A stretch of 64,000 nt of DNA from Planctomycetaceae bacterium. GTDB taxonomy: Bacteria > Planctomycetota > Planctomycetia > Planctomycetales > Planctomycetaceae. Below the pieces are notes generated by a model, which worked only from the letters and a program-made list of their open reading frames with translations, did not search any database and had not been told where the DNA came from. The translations under genes and the position numbers were made by a program. The stretch covers positions 1-64,000 of the forward strand of contig JADZEF010000419.1 of the NCBI GenBank assembly GCA_020850695.1, written 5' to 3'. Positions 21,905-26,970 of the stretch are shown here, piece after piece (the stretch's first letter is position 1; each line of letters starts with the position of its first letter).

Positions 21905-22099
21905 AGTAGCCCTCACGCTCCGCGTGAGGTGAAGCCGTCGTGACGCAGCGGGTGGAGCGGTAATACGACTTTCTTTGCGCGCTCAATCCAGCGTCTTCAG
22001 GACCATGAGATCGGGCTCGTCGTGCCATCGACCTCGTTTGGTCCCAACGGACCCGATGCGTGTAGGGCTTAACCTCATGCGGAGCATGAGGGCTACTTT
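21905..22099. repeat. Paired REP-like hairpin element, copy A
   Basis: The left unit 21905-21936 reads GTAGCC, stem CTCACGC, loop TCC, stem GCGTGAG, then GTGAAGCC. The right unit 22065-22099 is the same motif inverted with stem CTCATGC/GCATGAG. About 128 bp lie between. The right unit runs into the TAA stop of the AAA ATPase gene at 22098. Another pair is at 25578-25694. Confidence 0.88.
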
Positions 22100-23894
22100 A
22101 AAGCACCGAGAAGTAGTTCTTCACTGCGAAGTCGAATGCTTCCGGCGTGATCTTTCGCGCCGTCCCGCGATACGTGCAGAAGTTCTTCACCTGCAGCATC
22201 AGGTCGCGGGGCTGGCACGAGCGCAGCGGGCGGACGCCGCGGAAGTGCGTCATGATCAGGTAGTCGATCGCGCTGCGGTCGTAGGTGAAGCCCATCTTCG
22301 GGGCGATCGCCTGGAAGATCTTGTGGAACTCTTCCTCGGTCGGATCCGGAACCTGGATCTTGTACGGAATACGGCGCAGGAACGCTCCGTCGACCAGGTC
22401 CTTCGGCTCCAGGTTCGTCGAGAAGATGATCAGCTGGTCGAACGGAACCTGCACCTTCTTGCCCGACGGCAGGTTGAGGAAGTCGTACCGCTTTTCGAGC
22501 GGAACGATCCAGCGGTTGAGGAGCACCGTGACGGGCATCGTCTGGCGGCCGAAGTCGTCAATGACGAACGTCCCGCAGTTGCTCTTCAACTGGAGCGGGG
22601 CCTCGCAGACCTTCGTCTGCATATTCTGCGTGACTTCCAGCTCTTTCATCGTCAATTCACCACCGGCGATGACGGTGGGCCGGACGATGTGCACCCACCG
22701 CTGGTCGACGTCGGTTTGGAACAGGGTCGGGGCTGCGGCATCTTCGACGGCATCATGCACGCCAGGGTCGTACAGGCGAATGATGTCCCCATCGATGCCC
22801 AGGGCCCGCGGAATCCAGATGGACGACCCGAAGCACTGCGTGATGCGTTCCGCGATACTCGTCTTGCCGTTGCCTGGTTCGCCGAACAGGAACATGCCGC
22901 GCCCGGAGTTGATGGCGGGCCCCAGTTGGTCGAGCATTTCGCGGCTGATGATCAGGTCCTTGAATGCCTTGTGCAGGTGTTCTGCGGTGACGACCTGGTC
23001 GGCGATGCTCTGGGCGGCCATCGCCTTCAGATAGTCCTGAAGCGACACGGGGGCGGCCCCGTAATCCGAACATTCCTCGGCGAAGCGGCGGGCCCGCTCG
23101 CGGCCGAAGTCGGTGATGACGTATTCGTAGTCCCCCATTTCGGCCGTGCCGCGATAGGCGACCAGCTGCTCGGACTTCAGCTGCTTCAGGATCGGATCGA
23201 CGATGGTGAAGGGCAGCTTGATCTGCGAGCAGATTCCGCGGCCCGAGCTTGTCCCTTTGGCCAGCAGATACTTCAGCGCCAGCCGCTCGACTTCGTCCTG
23301 TGTCAGGCGTGTCTCGTCCAGGTTCTCCGGGCTGCGGGGACGATAGGGACCGTCGTTCTTGTCCTGCGATCCTAGGAGCTTATTGACGCGCTCGAACAGT
23401 TCGGACAGATGCGAGTGCCGCTTCAGGAAGATCGTCGGGCCTGCCCCTCCCTTTCCCGCTCCGGCTTCGGGGGGCTCTTTCGGGGCGGTCGATTCCGTGG
23501 GCGGAGCTTCGACCGCGACGGCAGCGGGGGCCGCGGCTTCGGCATTGTCCGTCGTTGCGGGGGCGTCGAGATCCGAGAAGTCGAGATCCAGTCCGTCGAG
23601 GTCCGCAGCGGCCGTGGTGGCTTTTGCCGGCGGCGATTTGACGGTTGGCGTCGGTTTGACAGCCGCCGCCGACTTCGCGGCTGCCGACTTCGCCGCGGCT
23701 GGCTTCGGCTTGGCAAGCGTCGCCGTTGCGGCCGCACTCCTGGGAGGCGGGTTGGGGGCGGGTGCGGAGCTTGTCGACCCCTTCGCCGACGAACCCGCAG
23801 AACCGTTCGAAGCGGTGGAACCGGACTTCGCGGGCGAGCGCTGCTTGAGCTGCGCGAGGAACTCGGCCGGAGTCAACTTTTGCGAGTCGGACAT
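22098..23894 (-). CDS. AAA+ ATPase with disordered N-terminus and winged-helix segment
   Basis: A 598-residue protein. After a short start ([14 protein letters not shown]) residues ~20-155 are Ala/Pro/Ser/Lys-rich and look disordered. Residues ~165-310 resemble a winged-helix domain ([42 protein letters not shown]). Residues ~310-598 are an AAA+ module: Walker [11 protein letters not shown], Walker-B-like VIDDFG, then IFSTNLEP with the sensor-1 Asn, and a Cys/Arg-rich C-terminal lid ([15 protein letters not shown]). Related planctomycete ATPases are annotated only as AAA proteins; MoxR-like remodelling is a possibility. It is divergent from a DUF1501 gene with a 259-bp gap that should hold both promoters. 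Confidence 0.82.
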
Positions 23895-24153: not shown

Positions 24154-25566
24154 ATGCTGCGGATCCTCGACGGTCAGGCTCGCCTCTGTGACGGCGTTAC
24201 GCGCCGCGAAGCACTTCGCGTCGGCGGGCTGAGCGCACTTGGACTTGGGCTCCCCACCCTGCTGGGCGGCCGCACCGCGCTCGGAAACTCCGCCGGCTCT
24301 CTCGTCAAGGGAGAGGGGACGGCCAAGTCGTGCATCGTCCTCTTCCTGATGGGCGGCCCCCCGCAACACTCCACTTTCGATCCCAAGCCCGACGCCCCGA
24401 TCGAAGTCCGCGGAGAGTTCGGGCCGATCAGCACCACCGTTCCCGGCATGCAGCTTGCCGAGACGCTCCCGCGGACGGCCTCCCAGGCCCATCACCTCGC
24501 GGTGTTGCGGGCGGTCTCGAGCGGTGACAACGCCCACTCGTCCAGCGGCTACTACATGCTGACGGGGCAGCCGCACGCCCCGATGAACTCGGAGAACGCC
24601 AACCCTGGCTTTCCCAACGACTACCCCAACTGGGGCGCCGTCGTCCGCAAGTTCCTGCCGCGCCGCGGCACGCTCCCCGCCTCGGTCCGCCTTCCGCACC
24701 GCATCTTCAACACCGACGGCAGCGTCTGGCCGGGCCAGGACGCGGGCTTTCTCGGACGCCCCGTCGAGCCGTGGCTCCTCAACTGCAAGCCGGCCGAGAA
24801 AGACGCCCGCATCGATGAATTCGTGCTGAGCGCCGACGTCTCCGAAGCACGCCTCGCCGGCCGCCGCAGCCTCCTCGACCACGTCAGCCGCCGTCTCGAC
24901 ACCGCTGAGCGGCTCGCCGCCCCGTCCAACTACGGCCAGCTCACCGAGCAGGCCTTCGGCGTTCTCAGCTCCACCGCCTCGCGACAGGCTTTCGAGCTCG
25001 ATCGCGAACCCGAGGCGATGCGCGATCTCTACGGCCGCACGCAGTTCGGCCAGGGAGTGCTGCTGGGCCGTCGCCTCATCGAAGCGGGAGTTCGTCTGGT
25101 CCAGGTCAACTGGTATCGCGGCCCCGAAGAACCCTCCGATGCCCCGTGCTGGGACAGCCACGCCCGCGAAGCGAAGCGGCTCCGGGAAAACCTCTGCCCG
25201 CCCGCGGACCAAGCGATCTCCGCCCTGTTAATCGACCTCGAACAGCGCGGCCTCTTGAAGGAGACGCTGGTCGTGGTGATGGCCGAGTTCGGCCGCTCGC
25301 CGCGAATCAATGGAGCCGCCGGCCGCGACCACTGGGGCAGCGTCTACTCGGCCGCCCTCGCCGGCGGCGGCATCAAAGGGGGCGTCGTGCACGGCGCGTC
25401 CGACGCCATCGGCGGTTATCCGAAGGAAGGGAAAGTCGCTCCGGAAGACCTCACCGCAACGATCTTCGATCGTCTGGGCATCGCCCCCCAAACCGAGATC
25501 CAGGACACGCTCGGCCGTCCGATCCCCATCAGCCGCGGCGAACCGATCCGCTCGATCCTGGCCTGA
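24154..25566 (+). CDS. DUF1501 family exported protein
   Basis: A 470-residue DUF1501 protein. The N-terminus (TRREALRVGGLSALGLGLPTLLGG) is a Tat-type signal with RRE in place of the strict RRxF. Motifs match the family: VLFLMGGPPQHSTFDPKPDAPIEVRGEF (cited here as the FDPKPDAP box), LGRRLIEAGVRLVQ, AEFGRSPR, GRDHWGSVY and ALAGGGIKGG. The C-terminal tail (PISRGEPIRSILA) is the usual ending. A GGAGA stretch lies about 13 bp upstream of the ATG. It has no DUF1549 partner and is followed by REP-like hairpins and the dihydroorotase gene. Confidence 0.9.
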   Translation: MLRILDGQARLCDGVTRREALRVGGLSALGLGLPTLLGGRTALGNSAGSLVKGEGTAKSCIVLFLMGGPPQHSTFDPKPDAPIEVRGEFGPISTTVPGMQLAETLPRTASQAHHLAVLRAVSSGDNAHSSSGYYMLTGQPHAPMNSENANPGFPNDYPNWGAVVRKFLPRRGTLPASVRLPHRIFNTDGSVWPGQDAGFLGRPVEPWLLNCKPAEKDARIDEFVLSADVSEARLAGRRSLLDHVSRRLDTAERLAAPSNYGQLTEQAFGVLSSTASRQAFELDREPEAMRDLYGRTQFGQGVLLGRRLIEAGVRLVQVNWYRGPEEPSDAPCWDSHAREAKRLRENLCPPADQAISALLIDLEQRGLLKETLVVVMAEFGRSPRINGAAGRDHWGSVYSAALAGGGIKGGVVHGASDAIGGYPKEGKVAPEDLTATIFDRLGIAPQTEIQDTLGRPIPISRGEPIRSILA

Positions 25567-25577
25567 AAGGCCTCTAT

Positions 25578-25694
25578 AGTAGCCCTCATGCTCCGCATGA
25601 GGTGAAGCCCTTCGCAGTCGCGACGTCGATGAGCCAATATCACGTCGATGGCACACCCGGCTTAACATCTTGCGGAGCAAGATGGCTACTTTTA
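25578..25694. repeat. Paired REP-like hairpin element, copy B
   Basis: The left unit 25578-25609 has stem CTCATGC/GCATGAG around TCC. The inverted right unit 25657-25694 has stem ATCTTGC/GCAAGAT. The flanks GTAGCC and GT(G/T)AAGCC are the same as in copy A at 21905-22099. The central spacer is unrelated to that of copy A. The element fills most of the gap between a DUF1501 gene and the dihydroorotase gene. Confidence 0.88.
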
Positions 25695-25719: not shown

Positions 25720-26970
25720 ATGATCATTGCCGGGCGCGTGGTGAATCCTGAGGGAGTCGTTCCGGCTCAGGTGCGGTTCGAAAAGGGAACGATCGTTGAA
25801 GTCGGAGCCGGCCTCGGCACGCCCGACGTCACCTATGGCGACCACTGCCTGATCTTCGCCGGGATGGGGGACATCCACATCCACGCCCGCGACGACGTCA
25901 GCGAGTCGCAGACCTACAAAGAAGACTTCCGCACCGCTTCCGCAGCCGCAGTCCATGGAGGCGTCGTCCACGTCGCCGACATGCCGAACAACCCGGTCGC
26001 TCCGATCGACGACGCGAGCTACCGCGGCAAGCAGCAGCACCTGGCGAAGCGCGACGTCCCCATCCACGTCACGCTCTACGCAGGCATCGGCCCCGGCACG
26101 CGACCGCTCTCGTTCCCCGTTCCGTACAAAGCCTACATGGGGCACAGCGTCGGCGACCTCTTTTTCACCTCGCTCGACCAGATCGACGAAGCCCTCTCCC
26201 ACTACCGCGGCTGCGACGTCAGCTTCCACTGCGAAGACCCCGAGCTTCTCGAAGCTCACAAGGGGGCAGCGACCCACGAGCAAAGCCGCCCCCCCGAGTG
26301 CGAAGTCTCCGCCACGCGGTTCGCCCTGAAGATGATCGAAAAGCACGGCCTGCGTGGAAAGCTGTGCCACTACTCGGTCGACGAGGGCCTCCCGCTCATT
26401 CGCGAGGCCCGGCGGCGCGGACTCCCCGTCACCTGCGAAGTCACCCCGCACCACCTCTACTTCGACGAAACCGACGTCACCCCGGCCAACCGCGGCTGGA
26501 TGCAGATGAACCCCCCGCTCCGCCGCCCACAGGACCGCGAAGGCATGCTGGCCGCCCTCCGCGACGGAACGCTGGACTACCTCGCGACTGACCACGCCCC
26601 CCACTCGCTCGAAGAGAACGAAAAGGGGATCTCCGGCCAGCCCCACCTCGACACCTTCGCCCCGTTCGTCACCTGGCTGCTGCTCGAAAAGGGATTCACC
26701 CCCGAGCGTCTGGCCGAAGTCTGCTCGGCCAATCCCGGCCGCTTCGTGAACCCCTACACGGCCCCGAAGCGGTTCGGACGGGTCGAAGCGGGATACGTGG
26801 CGTCCTTCACCGTCCTCAATCTCCAGCGGCCGACGACGATCCGCCGCGAGGAACTGAAGACGAAGTGCGGTTGGTCGCCCTTCGAAGGCATGTCGTTTCC
26901 GGGCTCGATCGAAGCCGTGTGGATCGATGGCCGGCAGGTCGCGGGTGTCGATGGCATCGCAGCGCCGTAG
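25720..26970 (+). CDS. pyrC: Dihydroorotase-type amidohydrolase
   Basis: A 416-residue cytosolic zinc amidohydrolase; the expected reaction is ring closure of N-carbamoyl-aspartate to dihydroorotate in pyrimidine synthesis. Seen in order: metal-binding GMGDIHIHARDD (residues ~47-58), a DMPNNP substrate-loop motif near residue 88, a candidate carbamylated metal-bridging Lys in VPYKAYMG, SFHCEDPE and LCHYSVDE supplying further His ligands, EVTPHHLYFDE, MNPPLR, and the catalytic Asp in ATDHAPHS. This pattern is dihydroorotase-like and not allantoinase, but the enzyme has not been distinguished from other cyclic-imide hydrolases. No other pyrimidine genes are adjacent. Confidence 0.85.
   Translation: MIIAGRVVNPEGVVPAQVRFEKGTIVEVGAGLGTPDVTYGDHCLIFAGMGDIHIHARDDVSESQTYKEDFRTASAAAVHGGVVHVADMPNNPVAPIDDASYRGKQQHLAKRDVPIHVTLYAGIGPGTRPLSFPVPYKAYMGHSVGDLFFTSLDQIDEALSHYRGCDVSFHCEDPELLEAHKGAATHEQSRPPECEVSATRFALKMIEKHGLRGKLCHYSVDEGLPLIREARRRGLPVTCEVTPHHLYFDETDVTPANRGWMQMNPPLRRPQDREGMLAALRDGTLDYLATDHAPHSLEENEKGISGQPHLDTFAPFVTWLLLEKGFTPERLAEVCSANPGRFVNPYTAPKRFGRVEAGYVASFTVLNLQRPTTIRREELKTKCGWSPFEGMSFPGSIEAVWIDGRQVAGVDGIAAP

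Follow-up and report, generated by a model that had tools for sequence, protein, structure and literature searches.

Inverted pairs of GTAG-type REP hairpins with covarying stems in a Planctomycetaceae genome

Two inverted pairs of hairpin units in the window

We analysed a stretch of 64,000 nt, hereafter the window. It contains two inverted pairs of a GTAG-type REP unit, at 21906–22096 and 25579–25689. The unit is 31 nt long and follows the consensus GTAGC[8-bp stem]TCC[stem']TTAAGCC, or a near variant. Each element comprises two inward-facing units, with GTAG at the outer ends. The first element (REPIN 1; 21906–22096, 191 bp) has a long spacer. Its left unit (21906–21936, plus strand) consists of GTAGC, the stem arm CCTCACGC, the loop TCC, the stem arm GCGTGAGG and the tail TGAAGCC; the arms occupy 21911–21918 and 21922–21929. 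The right unit (22066–22096, minus strand) has the stem CCTCATGC, the loop TCC and the tail TTAAGCC. One nucleotide from its GTAG lies the TAA stop (22098–22100, minus strand) of a minus-strand ORF at 22098–23894. By eye, the spacer of REPIN 1 looks like a mosaic, similar on the left to the short-class spacer and on the right to the spacer of another copy, L022. The second element (REPIN 2; 25579–25689, 111 bp) belongs to the short class. It separates tandem ORFs at 24154–25566 (DUF1501) and 25720–26970 (amidohydrolase). The third unit (25579–25609, plus strand) has the stem CCTCATGC, loop TCC and tail TGAAGCC. The fourth (25659–25689, minus strand) has the stem CATCTTGC, loop TCC and tail TTAAGCC. 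It shares head, stem and loop with RAYT-flanking units of genomes labelled Prosthecobacter (L240, L245).

An earlier note on this DNA had described four units in two inverted pairs, with three stem positions changing on both sides at once. The coordinates and stems are as it described. The stems read CTCACGC, CTCATGC, CTCATGC and ATCTTGC, each is accompanied by its exact complement, and positions 1, 4 and 5 are altered on both arms. Allowing up to 3 mismatches, the pattern matched the window 4 times, compared with a shuffle mean of 0.27; none of 100 shuffles reached 4. Two units were folded as single-stranded DNA. Exactly the GTAGC-stem-TCC hairpin was returned and no shuffle folded equally well. 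A covariance model built from genome copies, with the four window units in its training set, found these units as the sole window matches up to E = 1.

Genome-wide copies and stem covariation

The source genome is Planctomycetaceae-like and comprises 8.6 Mb in 440 contigs. The pattern taken from the earlier note had 54 exact copies, against 0 for a reversed control. With up to 2 mismatches there were 88 copies (control, 3). A 24-nt core gave approximately 136 (control, 2), and almost every copy belongs to an inverted pair. GTAG-type REPs are defined by a GTAG (or GTGG) tetranucleotide 0–2 nt 5' of a short hairpin and by many, mainly extragenic copies; the present units agree in both respects. 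From the copy surroundings we extracted 45 complete inverted pairs, in which two REPs are inverted at short distance as in REPINs or HH dimers. Most are 107–191 bp long; a short class measures 107–111 bp, a long class mostly 158–191 bp, and a few are longer. Spacers share a mean identity of 64% (59% when shuffled), and units share 83%. The best pair of full elements compared was 89% identical, and neither a recent burst nor an insertion event is visible among them. At three loci (L049, L061 and L064), two near a contig end, units lie near a shared repeat around GGGGTGGCTGGGGTCGAGGCTTTGCGA, by eye another repeated element.

The elements mostly abut gene 3' ends. When ORFs were called heuristically, the neighbouring genes were tandem for 26 elements, convergent for 13 and divergent for 1; 2 of the 45 fell within a called ORF. 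The outer flank is mainly AAA/TTT. At 37 of the 71 gene 3' ends that face an element, the stop codon falls −4 to +8 nt from GTAG. At 11 of the 71, the stop overlaps the REP head, as the TAG of GTAG or the TAA of a GTAA variant. At such ends, for example L006, L012 and L026, the repeat itself supplies the stop. TAG stops provided by REPs are known already (PMC3733652), and a translational effect has been reported for E. coli REPs near stops (PMC12306157).

Covariation was measured in the 88 copies, an unbiased set, since the search left the stem letters free and did not require pairing. The stem is perfect in 70 of the 88. Across the set, 35 compensated double changes stand against 22 uncompensated ones (6 one-sided G-T, 15 one-sided broken and 1 two-sided broken), although the copies are related by descent and these are not independent events. 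Shuffling the 3' arms (5000 shuffles) gave a mean of 4.3 compensated changes and a maximum of 12. By the earlier note's own test, the claim would fail if uncompensated changes were as common genome-wide as compensated ones. The observed balance favours structure, even though uncompensated single changes are fairly frequent among copies. In 58 distinct units, 94.8% of helix cells pair and 41 cells carry double changes, versus 9.0 when shuffled. Paired cells, double-change cells and covariation score all exceeded each of 500 shuffles and every slid register. Within the 7-nt stem, variation is concentrated at positions 1, 4 and 5; the remaining positions are nearly invariant. Hence, the stem is partly under sequence constraint too.

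At the variable positions, 256 of 270 cells pair within the unit, whereas paired units agree with one another in 192 of 270. The constrained object is therefore the small hairpin and not a long inverted repeat. The same 5' stem is present in both units of a pair in 18 of 45 pairs. Together with the shuffles and the turnover of stems across genera described below, these counts support the proposal that the hairpin is selected or templated. A further claim, that left and right units differ systematically (GTGAAGCC left, GTTAAGCC right), fails genome-wide. GTTAA is most frequent on both sides (28/45 left and 34/45 right units), and GTGAA occurs in 3 of 45 left units. The asymmetry in the window is a local coincidence. 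In the right units of L045 and L056, GGA replaces the TCC loop while the rest of the unit is normal, as if the hairpin had flipped.

RAYT genes in relatives and in the source genome

The strict pattern had no match beyond the source genome among 59 genomes and a contig collection. Hence, a covariance model was needed. Of 170 genomes in the taxonomic family, 58 contained the REP family by this model; they span 18 genera and include the source genome. Stems tend toward genome-specificity, with TTCACGC in G114 and G030 and CTCTCGC in G150 and G070. Across genera the stem turns over while GTAG and TCC stay constant.

We listed Y1 transposase genes in 14 genomes carrying the family and scanned the gene flanks. 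Three genes (L158, L162 and L168) have GTAGC-CCTGTCGC-TCC units on both sides. A wider search with RAYTs of this type, together with a collection of named genomes, gave more than 100 loci in genomes labelled Planctomycetota or Verrucomicrobia. At 102 RAYT loci, some possibly counted twice because their records occur in both searches, the density of GT[AG]G hairpins is 2.59 per kb up to 400 nt from the gene and 0.19 per kb beyond 700 nt, a difference of about 14-fold. The loop begins with TCC in 177 of 201 near hairpins, which carry 59 different stems. Thus, in relatives, the same REP lies on both sides of a RAYT gene. The encoded proteins resemble TnpAREP and have the HUH and single-tyrosine motifs; HxH and Tyr are invariant (H140, H142, Y200). 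They match the E. coli TnpArep structure 4er8 (E = 0.00059), and the NCBIfam RAYT model NF047646 at E 1.5e-13, under its curated cut-off. Rows with GTAGC-C-stem units fall within a supported clade of 18 (99/97). The REP family occurs in 15 of 17 genomes with such a RAYT (at least 250 bits) and in 43 of the other 153 (Fisher p = 1.9e-6, kinship ignored). Weak model matches near the C175 RAYT fragment and in L150 are divergent and carry no weight.

The earlier note had proposed looking for a RAYT transposase. Relatives yielded the REP-flanked clade; the source genome did not yield a member of it. A profile search of the 440 contigs found C323a, C9 and C241 only, and none belongs to the cognate clade. 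C323a is placed in its sister group, and the RAYTs found are sister-clade or more distant. At least four other RAYT/REP pairings are present: C323a with GTGGCACGCGAG, C323b with GTAGGGCAGGC, C241 with GTAGCACGGGC and C9 with GTAGTCCGGCC. We had considered C323b (L072 4904–5491, G000:C323; 195 aa; NF047646 E 2.5e-54) as the cognate RAYT. It was dropped, since it has a REP family of its own, GTAGGGCAGGCTCCCGCCTGCC, arranged in inverted pairs at 22 genome sites. RAYTs of the C323b type in relatives adjoin GTAG hairpins with other stems. The RAYT remnant on C215 was also rejected as a partner; it adjoins a GTAGGGTGGGC-type repeat, a different family. More RAYT genes or remnants (L070 1299–2042, L201, L071 and L107) each adjoin their own GTAG/GTGG hairpin type. 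Hence, several REP systems inhabit one genome.

We infer that the cognate RAYT was lost from the genome or, given 440 contigs, lies in a gap between them. The REPIN population could have outlived its own RAYT, with the roughly 136 mostly perfect, compensated hairpins maintained by something else. We regard this as rather doubtful. In that case the hairpins may be kept by a host role at 3' ends or in translation, or because the sister-clade RAYT on C323 also recognises them.

Interpretation and comparison with known systems

The earlier note had called the hairpins REP-like, and the GTAG head, perfect 8-bp stem, 3-nt loop, inverted pairing, position 3' of genes and flanking of RAYT genes in relatives all bear this out. 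We conclude that the elements are very probably GTAG-type REP units in head-outward inverted pairs (REPINs or HH dimers), the hairpins of which would be recognised by a RAYT. Such REPINs would be non-autonomous DNA elements that, when single-stranded, fold into a GTAG-headed hairpin. The RAYT, a TnpAREP-like HUH-Y1 transposase, would know its target by the GTAG head, the TCC loop and a perfectly paired stem, and could thereby cut, join and spread REPIN copies. The mobilising enzyme would be a RAYT of the clade that the family flanks in relatives. Pairing would outweigh most stem letters, leaving stems to drift by compensated changes around an unchanging head and loop. Recognition seems to depend on the folded structure more than on the letters of the hairpin. 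Elements would survive mainly just past stop codons, the least harmful position, and may there slow ribosomes or shield the ends of mRNAs.

That location also invites a reading in which RNA function is primary and repetition secondary, with the hairpins serving as bidirectional intrinsic terminators or mRNA 3'-end stabilisers. The sites come after stop codons, between tandem or convergent genes; AAA/TTT predominates on the outer flank, and the transcribed pair folds much better than shuffles. However, the T-run is short. In a scan for GC hairpins with a T run, two of the four window units scored but the region total equalled chance expectation (4 terminator-like sites versus 4.1). Rfam gave no match, and a terminator needs neither the GTAG head nor the TCC loop nor RAYT flanking. 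We judge this reading unlikely; as a by-product, the REPs may act at the RNA level downstream of stop codons. Far less probable still are MITE-like remnants of a transposon that ended in 31-bp inverted repeats and relied on an ordinary (DDE) transposase. They would account for the inverted pairs, the AAA extension outside both ends and the discrete length classes, but not for pair ends that often differ in stem (the 5' stem is shared in 18/45) while self-pairing is kept (256/270 versus 192/270), nor for the same units flanking RAYT genes. No target-site duplication was seen by eye, and no intact DDE transposase gene bounded by REP ends was seen at the loci read. An integron attC reading was rejected by inspection, the GTTRRRY/RYYYAAC-like ends being wrongly oriented.

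The covariation itself might instead come from templated repair, in which strand switching at the hairpin copies one arm onto the other and pairing is not selected. The units with a GGA loop, otherwise normal, are what hairpin flipping or arm-templated events would produce. Yet one-sided intermediates are present (15 broken and 6 G-T in the 88 copies), conservation of the loop and head does not depend on pairing, and each RAYT lineage has its own stems. As a full explanation templated repair is somewhat improbable; it could add to the covariation pattern, as the loop-inverted units hint. With REPs recognised by a RAYT as the preferred reading, the hairpins are a new family within an established class, REPIN/RAYT, from Planctomycetota and Verrucomicrobiota and tied to its RAYT clade. 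They also present a possible case of REPs outliving their transposase.

GTAG super-family REPs, including HH dimers, were sorted into 24 families by Di Nocera et al. 2013 (PMC3733652), with one of which the present family may coincide. The likenesses are a GTAG head, a stem of 6–9 bp, a short loop and sub-families with alternative complementary stem letters. Dimers point head-outward, with spacers alike in length and unlike in sequence. Sites follow genes, with the TAG of GTAG as stop codon. The super-family has members in Planctomycetes and Verrucomicrobia, and REPtrons are absent from some species, as the cognate RAYT may be here. The window family differs in its TCC loop and in the single unpaired nucleotide that separates GTAG from the stem. 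In the REPIN/RAYT system of Bertels and Rainey 2011 (PMC3116915), paired REPs likewise form the unit and the same REPs flank RAYT genes, as they do in the relatives. In contrast to that system, no cognate-clade RAYT was found in the contigs of the source genome, and mobility here is putative.

The Stenotrophomonas REPtron Sm (PMC8266576) has a GCT loop in place of TCC; its RAYT has been assayed, while ours is known from sequence, with an E. coli TnpArep profile match of only E = 0.00059. Both systems combine GTAG with a perfect 8-bp palindrome and a 3-nt loop. In the TnpAREP assays of REPtron Sm, stem mismatches and a loop-base change impaired cleavage and changes of stem letters mattered less (PMC8266576). 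Dependence on stem pairing and on a loop base, with more latitude in the stem letters, predicts fixed GTAG and TCC with paired, drifting stems. The 59 stems on a single fixed GTAG...TCC frame constitute a natural mutagenesis set, with which the recognition rule is testable. This set fits the published assays, in which pairing and the loop matter more than the stem letters.
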